Under the pieces are notes generated by a model. It was not told the origin of the DNA. It saw only the letters and a program-made list of their open reading frames with translations, and ran no database searches. Positions 34,236 through 42,557 of a stretch of DNA of 55,142 nucleotides are shown here, piece after piece. Position numbers and translations under genes: made by a program. The DNA is from Meira nashicola. Taxonomy: Eukaryota; Basidiomycota; Exobasidiomycetes; Exobasidiales; Brachybasidiaceae. The DNA lies in contig BCJU01000003.1 of assembly GCA_001600355.1 (NCBI GenBank), positions 566,089 through 621,230 of the forward strand, written 5' to 3'. Numbering within the stretch: position 1 is the first letter of the stretch; each line of letters begins with the position of its first letter.

Positions 34236-37223
34236 ATGAGATGTGCAACGGTGGCGATTATACTTGTTGCTATTTTGCAGCAAGTACCTTATAATCATGC
34301 AAACGTCTTGAATTCTAATGATGATGAACTTGAACAAACATGGCAAAAACGCTTACAAGGAAATTCAGCAGGAGCAGCATCTTCAGCTGCTGAGAAAGTT
34401 GCTGAAGCAGGTGTAAAAGTTGCGAAAAGCCCTATGCAAATTTCAAAACCTGTCGCTGCTGCAATTACTGCTACTGCTGCTACACTCGGTGTTGGTGGTG
34501 GAATTCTAGCTCACAAATATCATCAAGACAGAAAGCAAGCTCAAAAGCTCGGTTTATACAATGCACCTCCGATGAAACGTAACGATGATGTACAATTTGT
34601 AAAACGTGGTAAATCGATTCCTCTCAATAAAGTGATTGCTATCGCTGGCGGATCGGCTGCAGGTGGTGCAGTAGTTGGAGCTTTGGGTCATTCTCTCTAT
34701 GTAAAAGATAAAGAGAGAAGGAAAGAAATCGCAGCTGCTCAATCTGAATCGCCTATGATGAAAAAGCGAACGATTACGAAAGGAGCTGCTTCTTTGATTG
34801 GAATTGGTGGTGCTGCTGTTGGCGCTACAGGAGGTATTTACGGTTACAAAGCACATTTGGCAAATAAAGCAGCTGCTTCTGCAGAGAATCCTGGACCTGT
34901 AAAGCGATCAGAATCAGTCGTGCCTTTTGAAAAGCGTGCTGGGCCAATTTCAGGAAGGCAAGCTGCTGCAATTGCAGGTGCAAGTATGGCAGTTGGAACT
35001 GTTACTGGTATTGGTATTCATACAATGGCTCAAGATCATAGTACTGTTAGACAAGTTCGAAATGGCGAATTACCGATGAAACGATCAGAGAAAGAAGAAC
35101 GAGAAAATGTCTTACTCAAACGTAATAATTTTCACTCGTTCTTGAGTCCTAAAGCTGCTGGTGTCATCGGAGTAGCATCATTTGCTTCAGGTGCAGCTAT
35201 TGGCGGCTTAGGTCATAAAGCTTATAGCGGTCCACATCAAAGTATGCCAATGGGTATCTCACAAGGACCTCCTCCGATTGAACGTGATTTGGAGGATTCC
35301 GAACAACTCGTACGTAGAGAGATAGCACCAGGTCTCAAGGCACTCGGGACAAATTTTAAGAAATTCGTTTCAACCAAACATGGGGCTGCAATCGCAGGAG
35401 GTGTAGCATCGGCTGGTATTGCAGGAGCAAGTCTTGTAGGTGGACATGCATGGGGTCAACATAGTGAACGCAAACGTATTCAAAGATTCCAAGCCGAACA
35501 ACAAGGTGGTGGCGGTGAAGGCGCAATGATGATGGTCAAACGTGCTGGATTAACTGAAGCATTTGGACATGCGAGTTCATCTATGAAAGGAGGTGTTCAA
35601 GCCTTGCAAGGTAAAGTAGGCAAGAACGGTGTAATTGCGATTGGAGCTGGTGCTGGAGCAGCAGCTCTTGCAGGTATCTCTTATGCAGCTGGACATCATC
35701 AAGGTAAAATTAGCAACATTGATGATCATAAGAATTCAATGCGTCCTTCTGCAGGCGGTGGATCTTCTATGATGTACAAGAGAAGCTTTATTAAAACACA
35801 TCCTAAGACTGTACTTGCTGCTGGAGCAGTTACTGGAACAGTTGCAACGCTTTTTGCAAAATTAGGTTCAAGTAACGCAAAATTACGCGAACAACGTAAG
35901 CTCAATGGAATGGATCGTCGTCCATCATCATCATCAATGAACTCAGCACCTATGGGTTTATCAGGAGGAGGTGGAGCCGAAGGGCAAATGATGAAGCGTG
36001 GAATGGAAGACCAAGGTACGCATGTTCCATCAATGTCTGACGTTGAACGTGAAGTGAAGAAAAATAAGCCAAGACGATCGCAAGCAAAGCAACCATATGG
36101 AGGTGTAGAAAGCCACATCACACCTCCCACCAGTCCATCTCCAAGTAATTCAGGCAATTCTGTAAGTCATCATTCTGAAGCATCTTCAAGTCATTTAAGC
36201 GGCGGCAAAGTTCTCGAACATCAACACTCTACAGCTTCCTCCAAAGGTCTTTCAGACGTCGCACATCATGCCGAACACGCAAGTAGCGGATCAGCAGCTG
36301 TCAAAGCAGGCGAAAATGCTGCTGGACATTCTTTGAAAAATTTTCATGTGACAGGTAAGCAAGCTGCTGTAGTCGGTGGTGCTTTGGCTGCTGTAGGTGG
36401 TGCAACATTATTGGTTCATCATATCACAAAACCGAAAAACCAAAAGAGAAATGAAATTTTCGATGATACTGCTATGCAAAAGAGAAATGATTTTTCTGAC
36501 AAGAGTAGCTTGCAAAAACGTGATCCAGCAGGCCATTTAAATAATGCTTTGGTAGCAGTTGGAACAGTTGCCCTTGGAGCTGGAGGTTATTTGGCCGGTT
36601 ATTCGACAGGAAAGTCAGCAGGAGTTTCTAATATCGCAAAATATGAATCAAAGATGCGCAGTTCATCTGGAATGGGCGGTGGCATGTACAAGCGTGCAAT
36701 TTCTGAAGCAGAAGCAGAAATGACAAAGAGGGACATAACGGCAAAAGCTGCTCAAAGAGCTGTGATGGGAGTTGGTGCTGCAGGTCTCTTAGCTGGTGGC
36801 TTCCTTCTTGGTAGAAAGCATGGCCAAGAACGAGGTGAAGCAGATTATTCGCTTCAAAAAATTCAACGTGGTAGTGGCGGTGGATATTATAAGCGTTCTT
36901 TTGATGATGCTGAAGAAGTGCAAATGATGAAACGTAAACCGCCCATGAGTTTGAACAAGAAAACTCTTCTTGCTGCTGGTGTTGCCACTTTGGGTGCAGT
37001 TGTCACTATACCTGCTTATAAAATGGGAAAAAAGGATGGCAAATATTCTGCTCGAAAGGCAAGAAATGCATCTATGCAAGAGATGTCCATGTCATCACCA
37101 TCAATGGATAACAGTTCCGGTCATATGCAAAAGAGAGCATACAAATTGGGAGAACCACAACATTTTGGTAAAGGAAACAAGATTCCTTTACGTTCCGAAG
37201 TTGATGATAAGATGTTGTATTGA
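34236..37223 (+). CDS. Secreted Kex2-processed polyprotein with twelve glycine-zipper cassettes
   Basis: 995 residues, single exon. A signal peptide covers residues 1-~22, with its only cysteine (C3) and QQ at 15-16. About 20 KR dibasic sites follow, most preceded by Met, Gln or Val (at 38-39, 114-115, 123-124, 177-178, 223-224, 233-234, 282-283, 295-296, 435-436, 515-516, 587-588, 737-738, 749-750, 761-762, 819-820, 831-832, 886-887, 899-900, 966-967). Between them lie twelve Gly/Ala-rich hydrophobic segments of 20-25 residues with GxxxG/AxxxG spacing (about 72-93, 132-154, 183-205, 241-264, 306-329, 382-404, 463-486, 523-542, 707-728, 770-790, 838-859, 908-929), each with a basic or His-rich tail. 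Short acidic peptides of about 9-13 residues sit between several cassettes. Expected fate: entry to the secretory pathway and cleavage by Kex2 into many different peptides. Function unknown; fungal parallels are Ustilago Rep1 and Candida Ece1, without clear similarity. Confidence 0.93.
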   Translation: MRCATVAIILVAILQQVPYNHANVLNSNDDELEQTWQKRLQGNSAGAASSAAEKVAEAGVKVAKSPMQISKPVAAAITATAATLGVGGGILAHKYHQDRKQAQKLGLYNAPPMKRNDDVQFVKRGKSIPLNKVIAIAGGSAAGGAVVGALGHSLYVKDKERRKEIAAAQSESPMMKKRTITKGAASLIGIGGAAVGATGGIYGYKAHLANKAAASAENPGPVKRSESVVPFEKRAGPISGRQAAAIAGASMAVGTVTGIGIHTMAQDHSTVRQVRNGELPMKRSEKEERENVLLKRNNFHSFLSPKAAGVIGVASFASGAAIGGLGHKAYSGPHQSMPMGISQGPPPIERDLEDSEQLVRREIAPGLKALGTNFKKFVSTKHGAAIAGGVASAGIAGASLVGGHAWGQHSERKRIQRFQAEQQGGGGEGAMMMVKRAGLTEAFGHASSSMKGGVQALQGKVGKNGVIAIGAGAGAAALAGISYAAGHHQGKISNIDDHKNSMRPSAGGGSSMMYKRSFIKTHPKTVLAAGAVTGTVATLFAKLGSSNAKLREQRKLNGMDRRPSSSSMNSAPMGLSGGGGAEGQMMKRGMEDQGTHVPSMSDVEREVKKNKPRRSQAKQPYGGVESHITPPTSPSPSNSGNSVSHHSEASSSHLSGGKVLEHQHSTASSKGLSDVAHHAEHASSGSAAVKAGENAAGHSLKNFHVTGKQAAVVGGALAAVGGATLLVHHITKPKNQKRNEIFDDTAMQKRNDFSDKSSLQKRDPAGHLNNALVAVGTVALGAGGYLAGYSTGKSAGVSNIAKYESKMRSSSGMGGGMYKRAISEAEAEMTKRDITAKAAQRAVMGVGAAGLLAGGFLLGRKHGQERGEADYSLQKIQRGSGGGYYKRSFDDAEEVQMMKRKPPMSLNKKTLLAAGVATLGAVVTIPAYKMGKKDGKYSARKARNASMQEMSMSSPSMDNSSGHMQKRAYKLGEPQHFGKGNKIPLRSEVDDKMLY

Positions 37224-37694
37224 AAGCTATGTTTGGTATCGTAACCCCTATTGTTTTTATTGTCTATTTTTCAACACATTTTCACCTCTGTTCGTTTTTT
37301 CACATTCTTCTTCTCATGATTTGTAAACTTTAGATTATGATTTCTTTGTTCAATATATTTCATCTTTCCAATTATGTTACTTTTTTTGGCTGAATTATCG
37401 CTCACCAACTATGTATGTATTGTACTGCATTCGGTTACAATGTAAATTATTGCGGAGCGGTGCTAAAAGACGCCATAGTCCTCTACGGAAATGATTAAGA
37501 TGCCAAAAAGGCCCGAGGACAATTTTTCAAGCCTTATAGCCACATTTATTGGCTTCAAGACCCGATGGCAATGGGGGCTAAGGGTATGTATGACTTTTGT
37601 ATTTTATGGGCTGCTAGATGAAAAATATAAAAAGGGCCATTTATTTTACAAAGTGTGTACTCTTTTACCAACTACATCATCAATCTTTTTAACG
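37224..37694 (+). promoter_or_regulatory. Spacer upstream of second peptide-precursor gene
   Basis: 471 bp holding the 3' end of the polyprotein gene and the next promoter. The following frame is open from 37491, but that stretch contains no signal peptide and reads as leader. A GACGCC word at about 37469-37474 resembles half of the dyad seen before later genes. Confidence 0.35.
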
Positions 37695-38495
37695 ATGAAG
37701 TGTACACAGCTGGCTGTGATTATTTTTGTTGTAATTCAACAATCTTTGTGCATCATTGAAGAAGACTATCAAAAGCCTTTATTATTTAAAGATGCATCTC
37801 TAAAAATGATGGAAAAAGAGGAAAATATTCTTCATGAATTAGAATCAAATCAAATTCAACGTTCTTTTTCAACTTTATACAATGATAATAAAGGTCATTG
37901 TCCAAATCATAAAAAGATGAAAAAAGTTATGGAAATTAATCTTTACTTAAATGATAACAAAGAACAAGAAAATATTTTGGAAAAGCGACAAAATAAACCT
38001 AAATTGACAAGAAGTGCTAGCGCACCTGCTTCTATTACACATGAAGCAAGTTCTGCTGTTACAAAAGCTAAACCTACTAAGATTGGATTTAGACTTGGAA
38101 AAGGTGGAAAAATTGCAGCAGGAGCTGTTTTAGCTACCGCAGCAACGGGAGCAATTATTAGTGGTGGAGTTGCAATTCATCATAGAATGAAGAAACAACA
38201 ACAACAACAAGATCAAGAAAGTCAAATGGTAAAACGTCAAAATGTAGTTTTTTATCCTAAACATAAAAAGATGGCAAGAATTATCGAAATGAATGATAAC
38301 ATGATTGATGATATTAAAGTTCAAATTGATGAGAACGAAGAAGTACAATTACAAAAGAGAGGAAAAGGAAAGATGGCTCTTTTGTTCGGAGGTGGTGCAG
38401 TTGTTGGTGCTTTGGGTATGAAGCATTTCAGTAATAAATCTGGTGGAGGTGCACCTCCTGCTGATCCAAATGCAGGTGGTGCTCCTGCTAAATAG
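37695..38495 (+). CDS. Secreted Kex2-processed glycine-zipper protein, 266 residues
   Basis: I start at ATG 37695 because it opens a clear signal peptide (MKCTQLAVIIFVVIQQ, cleavage near residue 19). The frame's earlier ATGs would bury it. KR sites are at about 97-98, 180-181 and 221-222. There are two zipper segments. One at ~138-160 (Gly/Ala/Ile-rich, followed by HHRMKK and a Gln run) precedes the second site. The other, at ~225-242, forms the C-terminal peptide with GGGAVVGALG and a DPNAGGAPAK tail. Kex2 cleavage would free a C-terminal peptide of about 44 residues. It shares the signal-peptide pattern and the tail with the next three genes. One cysteine in the mature region (residue 69) makes it slightly unlike the others. 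Function unknown. Confidence 0.88.
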   Translation: MKCTQLAVIIFVVIQQSLCIIEEDYQKPLLFKDASLKMMEKEENILHELESNQIQRSFSTLYNDNKGHCPNHKKMKKVMEINLYLNDNKEQENILEKRQNKPKLTRSASAPASITHEASSAVTKAKPTKIGFRLGKGGKIAAGAVLATAATGAIISGGVAIHHRMKKQQQQQDQESQMVKRQNVVFYPKHKKMARIIEMNDNMIDDIKVQIDENEEVQLQKRGKGKMALLFGGGAVVGALGMKHFSNKSGGGAPPADPNAGGAPAK

Positions 38496-38938
38496 GCAAT
38501 ATAAAGACCTAAGGTGGTTTTACACACACACACACACACATATGTATATATTCTTTGTTTTTATCATTGTACATATTGTTGTTATTATTATTCAGGTCAA
38601 TTTCATGTTCATTATTTTGTATAAACTCTTAGAACTAAGATCATCACTTGCCAAGAAGATGTGTGAAAGCTGGCACTATTCATAACAGCCAAGATCCTAT
38701 TGGGGCTAAATAGAAAAAACAGCCACACATTGTTCGGGGGCTAAAAAGAAGAAGATGGAGGCAAACTGATTTCATTCAGCCAGATCACTTTATGCCCCAC
38801 GTTCTGCCTTATATATTACGCCAAAGCTTATGGTGAGAGAAATAGAAGTTATTTAAAGATTGACTTTGAGATTGAAATGTTTTCTTTCCTTCATTTAACG
38901 ATAAACAATCACTTTGATAGTAGACTGTTTAACTAAAA
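38496..38938 (+). promoter_or_regulatory. Spacer and promoter of the third peptide-precursor gene
   Basis: 443 bp. A CA microsatellite (38521-38541) lies in the 3' end of the previous gene. Two related GGGGCTAAA words occur near 38703 and 38737, a TATATATTACGCC stretch near 38811, and the dyad motif sits at 38907-38927, just before the start codon. Confidence 0.45.
38907..38927 (+). promoter_or_regulatory. Dyad motif ACTTTGATAGT before a peptide gene
   Basis: AATCACTTTGATAGTAGACTG lies 12 bp before ATG 38939. The arms TCACT and AGT(A)GA flank a TTGAT loop. The same core recurs before the next two genes. Confidence 0.6.
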
Positions 38939-39376
38939 ATGAAACGTGCTCAGGTAGCCGCTTATTTTATTTTTGCACTTCAACAAAGTCATGCTGCACA
39001 TATTTATTGGAAGCCAAATCAATCTGAATTAAACGCTAAAGATGATACGGAAATGATTAAAACATTTCCTATTATTAATTTAAACGATTATAAAAATGAA
39101 CAAGAACAAGAAGAAATTCAATTATTATTTAAACGAGGTAGAGGAGCAGGAAGAGCGAAAAGAAGAGCAGAAAGAAAAGCTCAAAGAGCTGCAGAAAATG
39201 GACAACCTCACGTACAACACCAAGAAGCACCTAATCATCCGCCAGCAAAAGGTGGTATTAGCAAAACGAAAGCTGGTCTTATGATTGCAGGAGGTGCGGT
39301 TGCTGGAGTTGTAGCTACAAAAGCACTTAGCGGTGGTGGTGGCGGTGGTGACCCAAATGCAGCACCACCAGCTTAG
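38939..39376 (+). CDS. Secreted Kex2-processed glycine-zipper protein, 145 residues
   Basis: ATG 38939, single exon. Signal peptide MKRAQVAAYFIFALQQ and onward to about residue 20, with the shared QQ at 15-16. An acidic pro-region follows (~30-62), then KR at 65-66. The released C-terminal part (~79 residues) starts with a highly basic Arg/Ala region (GRAKRRAERKAQR), then SKTKAG and a zipper segment (~111-130). It ends in six glycines and DPNAAPPA. No cysteine. The acidic pro-region followed by a cationic, hydrophobic peptide is the layout of many membrane-active peptide precursors; whether that applies here is inference. Its C-terminal 45 residues are nearly the same as those of the next two genes. 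Confidence 0.88.
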   Translation: MKRAQVAAYFIFALQQSHAAHIYWKPNQSELNAKDDTEMIKTFPIINLNDYKNEQEQEEIQLLFKRGRGAGRAKRRAERKAQRAAENGQPHVQHQEAPNHPPAKGGISKTKAGLMIAGGAVAGVVATKALSGGGGGGDPNAAPPA

Positions 39377-39582
39377 TGTCTTGTTTTGTACTCCCATATA
39401 AATTCCTAAATACATAGAATAGAAATATAACAATTTATCATATTATGCTATTGTTCTGAGTATTATTGGCTAAATGATGACATTTCTTTTGATCACTTTT
39501 TTACGCCCCAGAGATATGATGCGGCTTAGATTTCAGCCTTTAAATGATCACAAAAGATTTCAAAAAAGAAGTCATGACGAAA

Positions 39583-39598
39583 GGCGTCAATTCACGCC
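39583..39598 (+). promoter_or_regulatory. GGCGT-N6-ACGCC dyad
   Basis: Perfect 5-bp inverted arms around CAATTC, about 135 bp before the ATG and just upstream of the TATA-like stretch. It is matched in position by 40631-40648. Likely a protein-binding site; the binder is unknown. Confidence 0.5.
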
Positions 39599-39670
39599 AC
39601 TTGAAAGATGATATGTTTATAAAGTCATACATTTTGTTCAGATATCCTATTTATTCTCTATCAAGTCAAA

Positions 39671-39722
39671 GTTACTTTGATAGTAAACTTTAACGAATCC
39701 AATAGTCACTTTGATAGTGAAC
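39671..39722 (+). promoter_or_regulatory. Paired ACTTTGATAGT dyads
   Basis: Two copies: GTTACTTTGATAGTAAACTT (39671-39690) and AGTCACTTTGATAGTGAAC (39704-39722), the second 10 bp before ATG 39733. The arms covary (TTACT/AGTAA and TCACT/AGTGA) around a constant TTGAT, so pairing or two-fold symmetry seems to be maintained. Confidence 0.65.
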
Positions 39723-39732
39723 TATACAAAAG

Positions 39733-40389
39733 ATGAAGTATACTCAATTAACTGTTTTTATCTCTTTAGCACTTCAACAAGTTAATTTTATTCAAGCATA
39801 TGTTATAGATTATTCAAATTCAAATTCTTTAGACCCAAGATCGTTAGAAGAAGAAGAAGATCAAGCACCTGTTTTACAAAAACGTTTAGATTCAGTAACA
39901 GGTGCAATTGTACCATATAAAGGTGCAGGTGCAATTGTACCACATCAAAGTGCAGGTGGTGGGCATACAAGTGGACCAGCACCACGTAAAGGTATGGGAA
40001 GAAATGCAAAAATTGTTGCAGGTGTTGGTGGAGCAATAGCAGTTGCAGGCGCAGTTGGAGGAGCAATAGGATTAACAAAGCATATAAAAAATAAAAAGAA
40101 TAATGATAAAAATGCTCAAAATGGACAAGTTCAATTAGTTAAACGTGGTGGTAGAAGAGGAGCAGGTAGAACAAGAGCTGCTCGTGAAAGAAGGGCTGAA
40201 GCAAAAGCACGTGGAGCAGGTGGTGGTGGTGGTGGTGCACAAGGAGGAATGAGTAAAACAAAAGCTGGTCTTATTGTAGCAGGAGGTGTGGCTGCAGGTG
40301 CTGTAGCAATGAAAGCACTCGGTGGTGGAGGTGGTGGTGGTGGCGGAGGCGGCGGTGGTGGCGATCCAAATGCCGCACCAGCAGCATAA
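39733..40389 (+). CDS. Secreted Kex2-processed glycine-zipper protein, 218 residues
   Basis: ATG 39733, single exon. Signal peptide MKYTQLTVFISLALQQ and onward to about residue 22. An acidic EEEED stretch leads to KR at 50-51, and a second KR is at 137-138. The middle peptide contains a GAIVP duplication (~57-70) and a zipper segment (~92-114) with a basic KHIKNKKNN tail. The C-terminal peptide has an Arg-rich region (RRGAGRTRAARERR), SKTKAG, a second zipper (~176-196), a run of 14 glycines (197-210) and DPNAAPAA. Both mature parts are cysteine-free and cationic. The Gly run is coded by mixed GGT/GGA/GGC codons. This is the closest relative of the CTG-start copy downstream. Confidence 0.88.
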   Translation: MKYTQLTVFISLALQQVNFIQAYVIDYSNSNSLDPRSLEEEEDQAPVLQKRLDSVTGAIVPYKGAGAIVPHQSAGGGHTSGPAPRKGMGRNAKIVAGVGGAIAVAGAVGGAIGLTKHIKNKKNNDKNAQNGQVQLVKRGGRRGAGRTRAARERRAEAKARGAGGGGGGAQGGMSKTKAGLIVAGGVAAGAVAMKALGGGGGGGGGGGGGGDPNAAPAA

Positions 40390-40630
40390 TATCTTTTATC
40401 GTGTATATAGCCAATATCCATTTTGTTCAATTTCCAATTGTATATGTTACCATCTATAAATTCATAACATAGTGAGTCATCATATGCTGAATACTATCAA
40501 CTCTTCAGACCACTAGGGGCGTAGTAGCATAACTTCAGAGTAGACGTCAGCCTTAAGTAATCAAAAAGGACGATAAGCCCCTCCTTCTCCCCGTTAAATG
40601 AAAGCTTTTCCAATTATTCTTAACGTCAAT

Positions 40631-40648
40631 AGGCGTAAAGTAACGCCT
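40631..40648 (+). promoter_or_regulatory. AGGCGT-N6-ACGCCT dyad
   Basis: Perfect 6-bp inverted arms around AAAGTA. It sits just upstream of the TATA-like stretch, as does its counterpart at 39583-39598. Confidence 0.5.
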
Positions 40649-40720
40649 CTTAAAAGATGATAATATATATAAAAAGCTATTATCATTCGTAAAATAATCT
40701 TAATTATGCTCCATCAAATT

Positions 40721-40778
40721 AAAGTCACTTTGATAGTAGACTTGAAAAACGAATTCAGCAATCACTTTGATAGTGAGC
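40721..40778 (+). promoter_or_regulatory. Paired ACTTTGATAGT dyads
   Basis: AAAGTCACTTTGATAGTAGAC (40721-40741) and ATCACTTTGATAGTGAGC (40761-40778), the second 10 bp before the CTG that replaces the start codon. Same pairing and similar spacing as at 39671-39722. Confidence 0.65.
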
Positions 40779-40788
40779 AAAATAAACG

Positions 40789-41211
40789 CTGAAGTATACT
40801 CAATTAATTGTGCTTATCTCTTTAACACTTCAACAAGCTAATTTTATTCAAGCATATCCACATTATAGTCATAATTTAGAGGAAATTACTCTATTTGAAG
40901 ATGAAATGAAAATCATTGACTCTAACAGCACAAATGGAAATGAACAAATTCAATTAGTCAAACGTTCAGGAACAAGAGGAGGTAGAAGAAAAAGAATTGC
41001 AGCACAAAATAGAGCAATGGAAGCAAAAACACAAGGAGGAAATCAAGGTTCAAACAGAGTTGCTGCAAAAGGTGGTATAAGTAAAACAAAAGCTGGTCTT
41101 ATGATTGCAGGAGGTGTGGCTGCAGGTGCTGTAGCTGTGAAGGCACTTAGCGGTGGCGGTGGCAGCGGTGGCGGTGGTGACCCAAATGCTGCACCACCAC
41201 CAGCCAAATGA
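40789..41211 (+). pseudogene. Glycine-zipper peptide precursor copy with ATG changed to CTG
   Basis: Alignment by eye to the gene at 39733 shows GATGAAGTATACTC there and GCTGAAGTATACTC here, so the ATG has become CTG (40789-40791). The frame stays open for 140 codons with an intact signal peptide (KYTQLIVLISLTLQQ), an acidic pro-region, a KR site in IQLVKRSG, an Arg/Lys-rich region, a zipper segment, a Gly/Ser tract and DPNAAPPPAK. An in-frame TAA lies just upstream at 40783, and the next in-frame ATG is inside the pro-region, past the signal peptide. Either it is a recently silenced copy or it starts at CUG. The intact downstream frame argues that the change is recent or tolerated. An assembly error is also possible. 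Confidence 0.7.
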
Positions 41212-41518
41212 TCATTCTGTACCATTTATATTTAATTCATCATTCTATCTTTTAAGCTAATTAAATCTAAAGAATTGGGCTGTATCATCTTACGAAAAGG
41301 ATAGGAATTGAAACAGGGTAATTTATATAAGCCCCGAATGAAAAAGATTGCCCATAATTCATAGCCAATCTTTACGCCCTTTATTTTAGATGGCGATAAA
41401 TTTGGGTAGCCCTAAAAGGTAATAATTAATCGTATATTTATACATTTCAAGTCATTTGTTCCCACTGTCACCTTTTACCATAATCATCAACGCTGGCTCG
41501 CTGATATTATTCAAAAAA
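41212..41518 (+). promoter_or_regulatory. Spacer before the sixth peptide gene
   Basis: 307 bp with a TTTACGCCC half-site near 41372-41380 and AT-rich DNA. The ACTTTGATAGT dyad is absent, matching the more diverged protein downstream. Confidence 0.35.
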
Positions 41519-41815
41519 ATGCATTTCTTCGTATTAGCTTTTATAATCGTTATCTTTAAATCAAACATTATCAATGCTGTGCCGATCGAAAGCGATGAAA
41601 ATCTCTCACAACAATTTCAAAAGAGAAGCCGAGGAGTGGCGGCTCTAGGAATGGCAGCAGCAGGTGTAGTTGGAGCAGCAGGTTTAGGTGTTTCCGCACG
41701 GGCAGAACATAAATATATGCAAAGAACAGGTAATCCTGTTCCTCCATCATTGCATGATTATGATTCAAGATCATCTCGTCAAAGAAGAGAAGATAGAAAA
41801 AAGAATCGTCTTTGA
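41519..41815 (+). CDS. Small secreted Kex2-site zipper protein, 98 residues
   Basis: Start taken at ATG 41519, which opens a hydrophobic signal peptide (MHFFVLAFIIVIFKS, cleavage near residue 20); the frame upstream is leader. A short acidic pro-segment (ESDENLS) leads to KR at 35-36. The mature part has one Ala/Gly zipper segment (~40-60, VAALGMAAAGVVGAAGLGV) followed by a basic, Arg/Ser/Asp-rich tail. No cysteine. It lacks the QQ signature and the DPNA tail, so it is a diverged family member or a convergent design. Confidence 0.8.
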   Translation: MHFFVLAFIIVIFKSNIINAVPIESDENLSQQFQKRSRGVAALGMAAAGVVGAAGLGVSARAEHKYMQRTGNPVPPSLHDYDSRSSRQRREDRKKNRL

Positions 41816-41996
41816 ACTAATTGAACATAGCATTACATCATTCAAGATATCCGATCAAGGCGATGATAGCAAACAAACCCCGCATCAACCCCACAAATTA
41901 TCCGAATAAAGGGCGTCAAAGTAGATTGGAAAAAGGTTTAAATATCAATCAGCTGTCCTTTGATTTTCTCCCTTCTTGAAATCTATACCTCCAACT

Positions 41997-42557
41997 ATGC
42001 ATCAATTCTTATCTAAACTTTGGATTCTTTTCCCGTTTTTCTTCTTGATGACAGTAAGCGCATCACCAATCGCCAATCTTCCCCACGCTATCTTGCCTAG
42101 TCATGATGAGAAAACAATGAAGACCGAAGCCGAGATGCATACAACAAGAAAGTCTTCCCTCGGTCATGCCAAATCTTCCCTCGGTCTCACAAAGCGTTCC
42201 TATTTGACCGAAGCCGAGGTTGAATCAAATTATAATTATTATTCTCGTTCTCGTGCCTTACCTATGATGATGATGATAAAAAGATCCATTAATACGGAAG
42301 CATCAATAGCAGCAGCAGAAGCAGCTTCAAGTGCTGCATCTAGTACAACAAAAGAAATTCTTCATCAAATTGCAAATAGTCATCCAAATACTGGAATGAA
42401 TGCGCCCAAAACATATAATGCAAAACAAGTAGGCGGTTTAGCAACAATTGCAGGTTTAACTGGAATCGGTTTAGGTTCAAGTGCACATGCTGGAATGACT
42501 AAAGTTCCAAAACATTTTGTTCATCATCATCATTATTCTGCCCATCGTAATTATTGA
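41997..42557 (+). CDS. Secreted protein with KR sites and C-terminal zipper, 186 residues
   Basis: Start at ATG 41997; signal peptide of about 23 residues (LWILFPFFFLMTVSAS). It contains a duplicated KSSLGHA/KSSLGLT pair ending in KR at 66-67, then a second KR at 95-96 after a run of methionines (ALPMMMMIKR; compare MMVKR in the polyprotein). An Ala/Ser-rich helix (~100-118), a zipper segment (~144-163, GGLATIAGLTGIGLGSS) and a His/Tyr-rich end (HFVHHHHYSAHRNY) complete it. No cysteine. Seventh and last gene of the series. It is the least similar, but it shares the overall plan. Confidence 0.8.
   Translation: MHQFLSKLWILFPFFFLMTVSASPIANLPHAILPSHDEKTMKTEAEMHTTRKSSLGHAKSSLGLTKRSYLTEAEVESNYNYYSRSRALPMMMMIKRSINTEASIAAAEAASSAASSTTKEILHQIANSHPNTGMNAPKTYNAKQVGGLATIAGLTGIGLGSSAHAGMTKVPKHFVHHHHYSAHRNY

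Follow-up and report, generated by a model that had tools for sequence, protein, structure and literature searches.

A cluster of seven genes for predicted secreted peptide precursors lies in a stretch of 55,142 nucleotides (nt) of the Meira nashicola genome (contig BCJU01000003.1, positions 566,089 to 621,230 of the forward strand), which we analysed as a whole and call the window; cluster coordinates are counted from its first letter. The seven frames, g1 to g7, occupy 34236-42557, share the + strand and stand 181-471 nt apart, so the seven consecutive same-strand genes described in an earlier note on this DNA are confirmed. Their common plan is a hydrophobic N-terminus, then Lys-Arg (KR), then a Gly/Ala-rich apolar stretch of at least 15 residues. 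Using thresholds of our own, we found this plan in 6 of the 40 open reading frames (ORFs) of the window that start at ATG and have at least 90 amino acids (aa), and cluster genes account for all six, with g2 counted in a longer, 334-aa reading. Lacking an ATG, g5 does not figure among these ORFs in that form.

The largest gene, g1 (34236..37223), encodes a precursor of 995 aa with 20 KR sites, 12 Gly/Ala apolar cores and eight short acidic spacers. Its 12 cores span 34452..37010 and lie, after conversion of residue numbers to window coordinates, at 34452-34511, 34632-34688, 34782-34847, 34962-35018, 35154-35213, 35382-35444, 35628-35693, 35808-35858, 36363-36416, 36546-36611, 36759-36812 and 36963-37010. 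The precursor of g2 (37695..38495; 266 aa) has three KR sites, cores at 38112-38177 and 38373-38420 and a DPNA-type C-terminus, and a TATAAA stands 69 nt upstream of its ATG at 37695. One core (39272-39319) is found in g3 (38939..39376; 145 aa), which ends in ...GGDPNAAPPA, while g4 (39733..40389; 218 aa) has two KR sites, two cores (40012-40077 and 40264-40311), a poly-Gly run and the C-terminus ...GGDPNAAPAA. Its tandem duplicate g5 (40789..41211) has 140 codons counted from a CTG and a core at 41092-41139. The last two genes are g6 (41519..41815; 98 aa), with one KR, a core at 41633-41698 and a basic tail, and g7 (41997..42557; 186 aa), with two KR sites, a core at 42429-42485 and a His-rich tail. 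The basic or His-rich tails noted earlier are thus found in g6 and g7, but the last cores of g2, g3, g4 and g5 run into a Gly-rich ...DPNA... end.

Signal peptides were assessed from hydropathy and inspection only. The N-termini of the cluster proteins are hydrophobic with small residues at plausible cut points, giving most of the genes an apparent signal region; the claim of a signal peptide in every gene is less secure for g3, whose h-region is weak, and for g5, where the signal region precedes the first ATG and depends on the CTG start. There are 0-3 Cys per precursor: one in g1 (residue 3), three in g2 (all upstream of the first KR) and none in the other five. Because of these positions the predicted released parts have no Cys at all, in keeping with their description as nearly Cys-free.

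The KR dipeptide is strongly enriched in the cluster. We counted 33 KR in the 2048 aa of g1-g7, while shuffled sequences have a mean of 8.1 (standard deviation 2.6) and a maximum of 17 among 2000 shuffles. Several Kex2-bounded fragments per precursor are predicted for g1, g2, g4 and g7. Kex2 prefers hydrophobic residues at position P4. With one KR in the first three residues of g3 excluded, 28 of 32 KR sites have a hydrophobic P4 residue (M, L, I, V, F, Y, W or P) versus 58 of 199 other basic residues, and the sums over ten relatives are 65/77 and 118/461, respectively. The KR sites of g1 are also kept between species: 52 of 58 aligned cells are unchanged in the orthologues P0003-P0005 (two cells are gaps, and P0002 was left out as nearly identical to g1). 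Inside KR sites K is conserved in 54/58 and R in 55/58 cells, and outside them in 129/179 and 57/84, suggesting that KR is conserved beyond K or R in general. The host genome assembly, used for all genome-wide counts (17.9 Mb, 20 contigs), has one match to the Kex2-type P_proprotein domain. The architecture, the KR enrichment and the P4 preference together support the idea that these genes encode secreted multi-peptide precursors of the Kex2 type.

The seven genes have 20 apolar cores, 12 of them in g1, plus the poly-Gly run in g4. The cores measure 16-22 residues rather than the 20-25 first given for them, and the core-bearing peptides between KR sites are 44-148 residues long. Among themselves the g1 cores have a mean identity of 25% and a maximum of 41% (66 pairs), whereas the same g1 core compared between species has a mean of 65% (34 of 36 comparisons usable), and therefore it is shape and composition that are kept across the precursor, not one common sequence. 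Repeat expansion as the origin of the g1 cores was rejected because they are too unlike. Gly is fixed in 149 of 164 cells in the g1 cores versus 139 of 189 outside them; Ala is kept in 132/197 and Val in 25/82 core cells, and Gly is the most fixed of the eight residues tested.

The predicted peptides alternate in charge, a feature outside the earlier note. All 19 core-bearing peptides are net positive and 10 of the 13 remaining released peptides are net negative, with exceptions at the C-terminus of g1 and for a single short peptide in g3 and another in g5. The N-terminal regions are negative in six of the seven precursors, that of g7 being +2. In g1 the short peptides are negative (8/8) and the long ones positive (11/11), and none of 20000 shuffles with KR fixed gives all short peptides negative, with the length limit of 22 between short and long having been set after the data were inspected. 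In P0003-P0005 the core peptides are positive in 31/31 cases and the scored spacers negative in 18/18; the three C-terminal ends (+2, +2 and -1) and an inner P0005 fragment of 69 residues (+4), which has no core by the rule used, were left unscored. The alternation hence holds firmly in g1 and its orthologues but only in part elsewhere. The full plan of acidic spacer, dibasic site and cationic peptide is found in g1 and its orthologues and only in part in g3, g5 and g7.

Three full-length orthologues of g1, P0003, P0004 and P0005, have 57-66% identity to it; P0003 (FA14DRAFT_87783 of Meira miltonrushii; Exobasidiales, Brachybasidiaceae) has 61% over the whole of g1. The relatives of g2-g5 are P0007 and P0009-P0014, where P0007 and P0014 are placed with g2, P0009 with g3 and P0010-P0013 with g4. 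P0016 and P0017 are orthologues of g7. The protein-database searches covered g1, g2-g5 and g7, and the best 7991 (g1) and 7987 (g2-g5) candidates were scored, so these counts of relatives are lower bounds and there may be additional distant relatives of g1 and of g2-g5. Genes like g1, g2-g5 and g7 appear together in two other genomes (P0004/P0011/P0012/P0016 and P0003/P0010/P0017): the longest contig is 27,556 bases for every member of the first group and 1,273,998 bases for every member of the second, and lengths so exactly equal very probably mean one contig per group. Only four relatives bear an organism name, M. miltonrushii (P0003, P0010 and P0017) or the fern record P0002, and none of the named matches is from Ustilago. 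The record P0002 names the fern Adiantum nelumboides as its source and shows a near-identical g1 on a contig of 3.75 Mb; it is probably a fungal contaminant of the plant assembly and would then supply a second, independent genome for this strain or a sister of it. Searches of the host genome with g1, g7, g6 and one g1 cassette gave no further copies outside the cluster, but such searches are weak for sequence of this kind, as the one g1 cassette did not recover the other g1 cassettes either. The search with g4 gave one weak match (E 0.09) in a 1916-codon frame on contig C5.

Our searches are consistent with the earlier statement that the cluster belongs to no described family. No Pfam or NCBIfam model scores above its cut-off for the cluster proteins (g5 entered from its ATG), no PDB chain matches g1, the protein covered by that search, at E <= 1, and no such family was found in the literature searched. 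The name DUF3824 (PF12868, cut-off 22.7 bits), given to P0003 in UniRef, was not borne out: the best scores are 12.1 bits for P0004 and 7.4 for P0005, all under the cut-off, and g1 and P0003 have none. The cluster proteins have no hydrophobin match at E <= 1, and their 0-3 Cys compare with the eight conserved Cys expected of a hydrophobin, so the earlier exclusion of hydrophobins and of disulfide-stabilised toxins holds. A profile of 19 cassettes from g1-g7, a check that the note had proposed, returned 31 distinct sequences at E <= 1. The matches are weak (best E 0.0067), and 30 of the 31 are prion protein, with the match in its short Gly/Ala apolar segment. We took this likeness as shared composition or convergence rather than kinship.

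We also compared the cluster with the definitions of Kex2-repeat proteins (KEPs) by Le Marquer 2019, Umemura 2020 and Vogt 2022, using similarity tests that approximate the published methods. The three screens ask for three or more fragments that share one motif, with a TMHMM filter applied first (PMC6339444), for a repeat score >0.6 in 40-residue seeds (PMC7329392), or for 70% identity, or 40% for short fragments, in proteins not over 800 aa (PMC9769878). The best ungapped 40-mer self identity in g1 is 16/40 (40%), which is below the Umemura-type >0.6 limit as approximated. No pair of g1 fragments has at least 70% identity over 60% of the shorter one, and one pair is found at E <= 0.001. The lenient rule of Vogt (fragments <20 residues at 40% identity, with one resembling two or more others) was applied to 15 short g1 fragments: 14 pairs reach 40% when the common dibasic end is counted, with up to five partners, and none without it, and these are mostly acidic spacers rather than cores. 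In g2 and g4 no pair reaches 40% either way. The limit of 800 aa is exceeded by g1, while g2-g7 are shorter, and the 20 apolar cores would likely lead to removal by the TMHMM filter. By these approximations g1 appears to lie outside the published KEP definitions. KEPs and the precursors of dikaritins and ustiloxin have a signal region and Kex2-bounded peptides, to which the apparent signal regions and predicted peptides of the cluster compare, and the g1 acidic spacers count as similar under that one lenient rule when the dibasic end is included, but KEPs are defined by similar repeats, which by our approximations we did not find among the g1 cores.

The genus Ustilago is in the same subphylum as the host of the cluster. 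Rep1 of Ustilago maydis is likewise a secreted precursor of many KR-bounded peptides; as described in PMC4617103, its 12 repeats of 34-55 aa give ten peptides of 35-53 aa and one of 228 aa, which form surface-active amyloid-like fibrils on the hyphae. By the same description, with which our comparison was made, the Rep1 repeats are amphipathic, whereas the cluster cores are uniformly apolar and have little likeness to one another; amphipathic imperfect repeats of 34-55 aa between Kex2 sites are not what we found in the cluster. Hum3 and Rsp1 of U. maydis are also secreted repetitive proteins with putative Kex2 sites, but in Hum3 the repeats are followed by a hydrophobin domain, and those of Rsp1 are hydrophilic (PMC4617103). 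Neither trait fits the cluster, whose proteins have no Pfam match above cut-off. Ece1 of Candida albicans, the precursor of candidalysin, resembles the cluster in having several non-identical peptides between Kex2 sites, one of which is membrane-damaging (PMC5784256, PMC2515848 and PMC6339444). Compared by description, Ece1 differs from g1 in length (271 versus 995 aa) and in having a single active peptide, where the g1 cores are conserved one by one. Animal antimicrobial precursors of the frog-skin type consist of an acidic propiece, KR and a cationic peptide, usually one amphipathic helix each. The cluster follows the same order of acidic propiece, KR and cationic peptide, but its cores are not amphipathic and number up to 12 per precursor.

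Our analysis suggests the following mechanism. The architecture, the KR enrichment and conservation, the P4 preference, the charge alternation and Gly conservation of g1 and the relatives of g1, g2-g5 and g7 can be read directly from the sequences, and we infer from them that each cluster gene would give a secreted precursor, which a Kex2-type protease in the Golgi would cut after hydrophobic-x-Lys-Arg. The cleavage would free cationic peptides of a block-amphiphile kind, in which one or at times two Gly/Ala apolar segments of 16-22 residues lie between basic ends, and the acidic spacers and pro-regions might balance the charge of the cationic peptides until then. The mature peptides would work by physical assembly, with the fixed Gly permitting close packing, and not via a receptor. 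Since each of the twelve unlike g1 cores is conserved, the peptides probably have a physical role and are unlikely to share a receptor. The most likely site would be the cell or hyphal surface, in a role like that of Rep1, and the conservation of g1 and the common subphylum seem to favour such a coat. We consider Kex2-released self-assembling peptides with this surface role the most probable explanation, though with a likelihood still somewhat under one half.

Several of our observations weigh against this explanation. A strict glycine zipper, as the earlier note had it, is not supported: GxxxG pairs are not above the level of composition (31 versus 28.6 +- 3.4, with 595 of 2000 shuffles at least as high), also when the poly-Gly run is taken out (21 versus 19.3 +- 3.5; 743/2000), and invariant Gly at i+4 in g1 is only slightly above expectation (9 versus 6.1 +- 2.0), though the Gly of the g1 cores is strongly conserved. 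The amphipathicity prediction that the note had proposed gave almost no moment in the 21 apolar stretches (helix 0.02-0.13, strand 0.02-0.16), i.e. the cores are uniformly apolar, unlike the repeats of Rep1. AlphaFold2 models, with a mean predicted local distance difference test (pLDDT) of 48 for g4 and 29 for g1, are too weak to inform on the fold, so the structure prediction proposed with it brings no fold evidence. The P4 preference is weaker in some small relatives (2/5 in P0011 and 3/7 in P0013), short positive peptides stand between KR sites in g3 and g5, and in the seven g2-g5-like relatives, where the core peptides are positive in 13/13 cases, the scored spacers are negative in only 6/11. 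Surface hydrophobicity has a second candidate in this organism, since the genome has two hydrophobin matches. A membrane-insertion score was crude, being a residue scale without position weights and with no known anchor scored. The cores score +2 to +6, nominally unfavourable. Over 19 residues their own signal regions reach +2 to +9, and because the two overlap the score does not decide between luminal passage and anchoring.

The main rival to a surface role is that of membrane-active defence peptides, where the cationic peptides would enter the membranes of competitors (bacteria, fungi or mites) and pack via Gly into pores, with the acidic spacers protecting the producer. The positive charge of all the core peptides and the acidic spacers of g1 would fit such a role, and the g2-g5 relatives vary between sources in length and seemingly also in number (the counts being lower bounds), as defence genes often do. 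The lack of amphipathicity in the cores speaks against it, and the full-length conservation of g1 at 57-66% identity, with single cores conserved, would suit a function at the fungus's own surface more than an arms race. We regard defence as possible but unlikely. The KR sites could alternatively be the mere basic flanks of apolar segments in Gly-rich wall or membrane proteins that are secreted uncut, since apolar segments with basic flanks are typical of membrane anchors. The cores do not score worse for insertion than the signal regions, and AlphaFold2 draws helices and no strands, at very low confidence, over all or part of 11 of the 12 g1 cores and over both g4 cores. However, mere flanks would account neither for the conservation of KR above K or R in general nor for the P4 preference, and for each of the 12 g1 cores the net charge is positive in the N-flank and zero or above in the C-flank, so there is no signal of a topology alternating between inside and outside. 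A multi-span membrane protein is unlikely by these flank charges, though the crude insertion score does not speak against it. Uncut proteins therefore seem improbable to us.

Peptide signals with a specific receptor, pheromone- or quorum-like, would be in line with the common use of Kex2 multi-peptide precursors for pheromones, as reported in PMC6339444. The invariance in four alignment rows of the g7 segment directly after KR, and the DPN found in 10 of the 11 rows of the g2-g5 alignment, point in the same direction. But alpha-type pheromone precursors carry near-identical short copies (PMC6339444), which is not the pattern of the g1 cores, and core peptides as long as those predicted here are long for such a role. 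As the g1 cores average only 25% alike, a sequence-specific signal is the least likely of the three roles that the earlier note had listed, and we give it a smaller chance still than uncut proteins.

The start of g5 and the leaders of g3-g5 show two further features that the earlier note did not have. g5 is 86% identical in DNA to g4 over 110 nt, and its CTG (40789-40791), with A at -3, aligns with the ATG of g4. The open frame reaches no farther upstream than 40786, and the first ATG in frame (40906) is past the signal region. g5 may hence start at the CTG, or lack a signal peptide and start at ATG 40906, or be a decaying copy. In the C-terminal 26 codons compared among g3, g4 and g5, the proportion of synonymous differences (pS, 0.29-0.45) exceeds that of nonsynonymous ones (pN, 0.09-0.15), while the first 23 codons of g4 and g5 have no such gap (pS 0.07 versus pN 0.09).

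In what would be the 5' leaders of g3-g5 there are five copies of a putative bulged stem-loop whose UUGAU loop is constant: one in g3 (38904..38929), two in g4 (39667-39692 and 39701-39726) and two in g5 (40720-40745, with a good stem, and 40757-40782), all on the + strand. In four of the five, 9 of 10 positions flanking a single bulged base are paired, and the fifth, the second one of g5, keeps only 5. Two stem pairs are changed on both sides, a count reached by 183 of 500 shuffles, and the covariation score and the paired percentage are each reached by 26/500. Against shuffles the folding of whole leaders has z -1.0 to -1.7 and that of single hairpins z -1.0 to -3.4. The stem-loops are therefore suggestive only. 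Of the six exact matches to TCACTTTGATAGTR in the genome, four are in the cluster, and the element contains the word TGATAG, which we take to be a GATA-type motif. The pattern with at most one mismatch has 55 genome sites, five in the cluster, versus 40 for the reversed control; we rejected a genome-wide regulon as it is near chance outside the cluster. The element may have spread within the cluster by duplication. A TATA-like word lies within 200 nt of the start in six of the seven cluster genes, and g1-g7 are hence probably transcribed one by one.

The neighbours of the cluster are unremarkable, with an RRM protein upstream and a CRAL/TRIO protein and MTHFR downstream. Elsewhere in the genome, one copy of the leader motif, in the opposite sense, is adjoined by two KR-rich ORFs that are related to each other, look like secreted precursors and have SLFTAIQxIWKRC segments. 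They lie on the - strand of contig C1 at ~6.567 Mb (L010:288-962 and 1558-2118) and form a Kex2-type precursor pair separate from the cluster. The two hydrophobin matches (L016 and L017) are divergent and ~2 kb apart on contig C4 at 28-31 kb, and one of them has three in-frame stops, perhaps introns.

We speculate, tentatively, that the cluster represents a new fungal secreted system, in which a non-repetitive polyprotein would release a dozen different, individually conserved and Gly-packed apolar peptides in alternation with acidic chaperone-like spacers, accompanied by faster-changing satellite precursors, to make up a mixed surface coat or a membrane pore; we think it less likely than otherwise that all of this holds. 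If it does, such systems may be common and yet unseen. Precursors like g1 are probably missed by the three Kex2-peptide screens because these require similar repeats, and because one discards predicted membrane proteins and another proteins over 800 aa. If the peptides are real, they would form a class of fungal surface or defence peptides that has been missed by design. The charge alternation and the P4-KR rule provide a search handle for such precursors, and the non-identical cores, conserved singly, raise the question why there should be twelve versions of one physical object.

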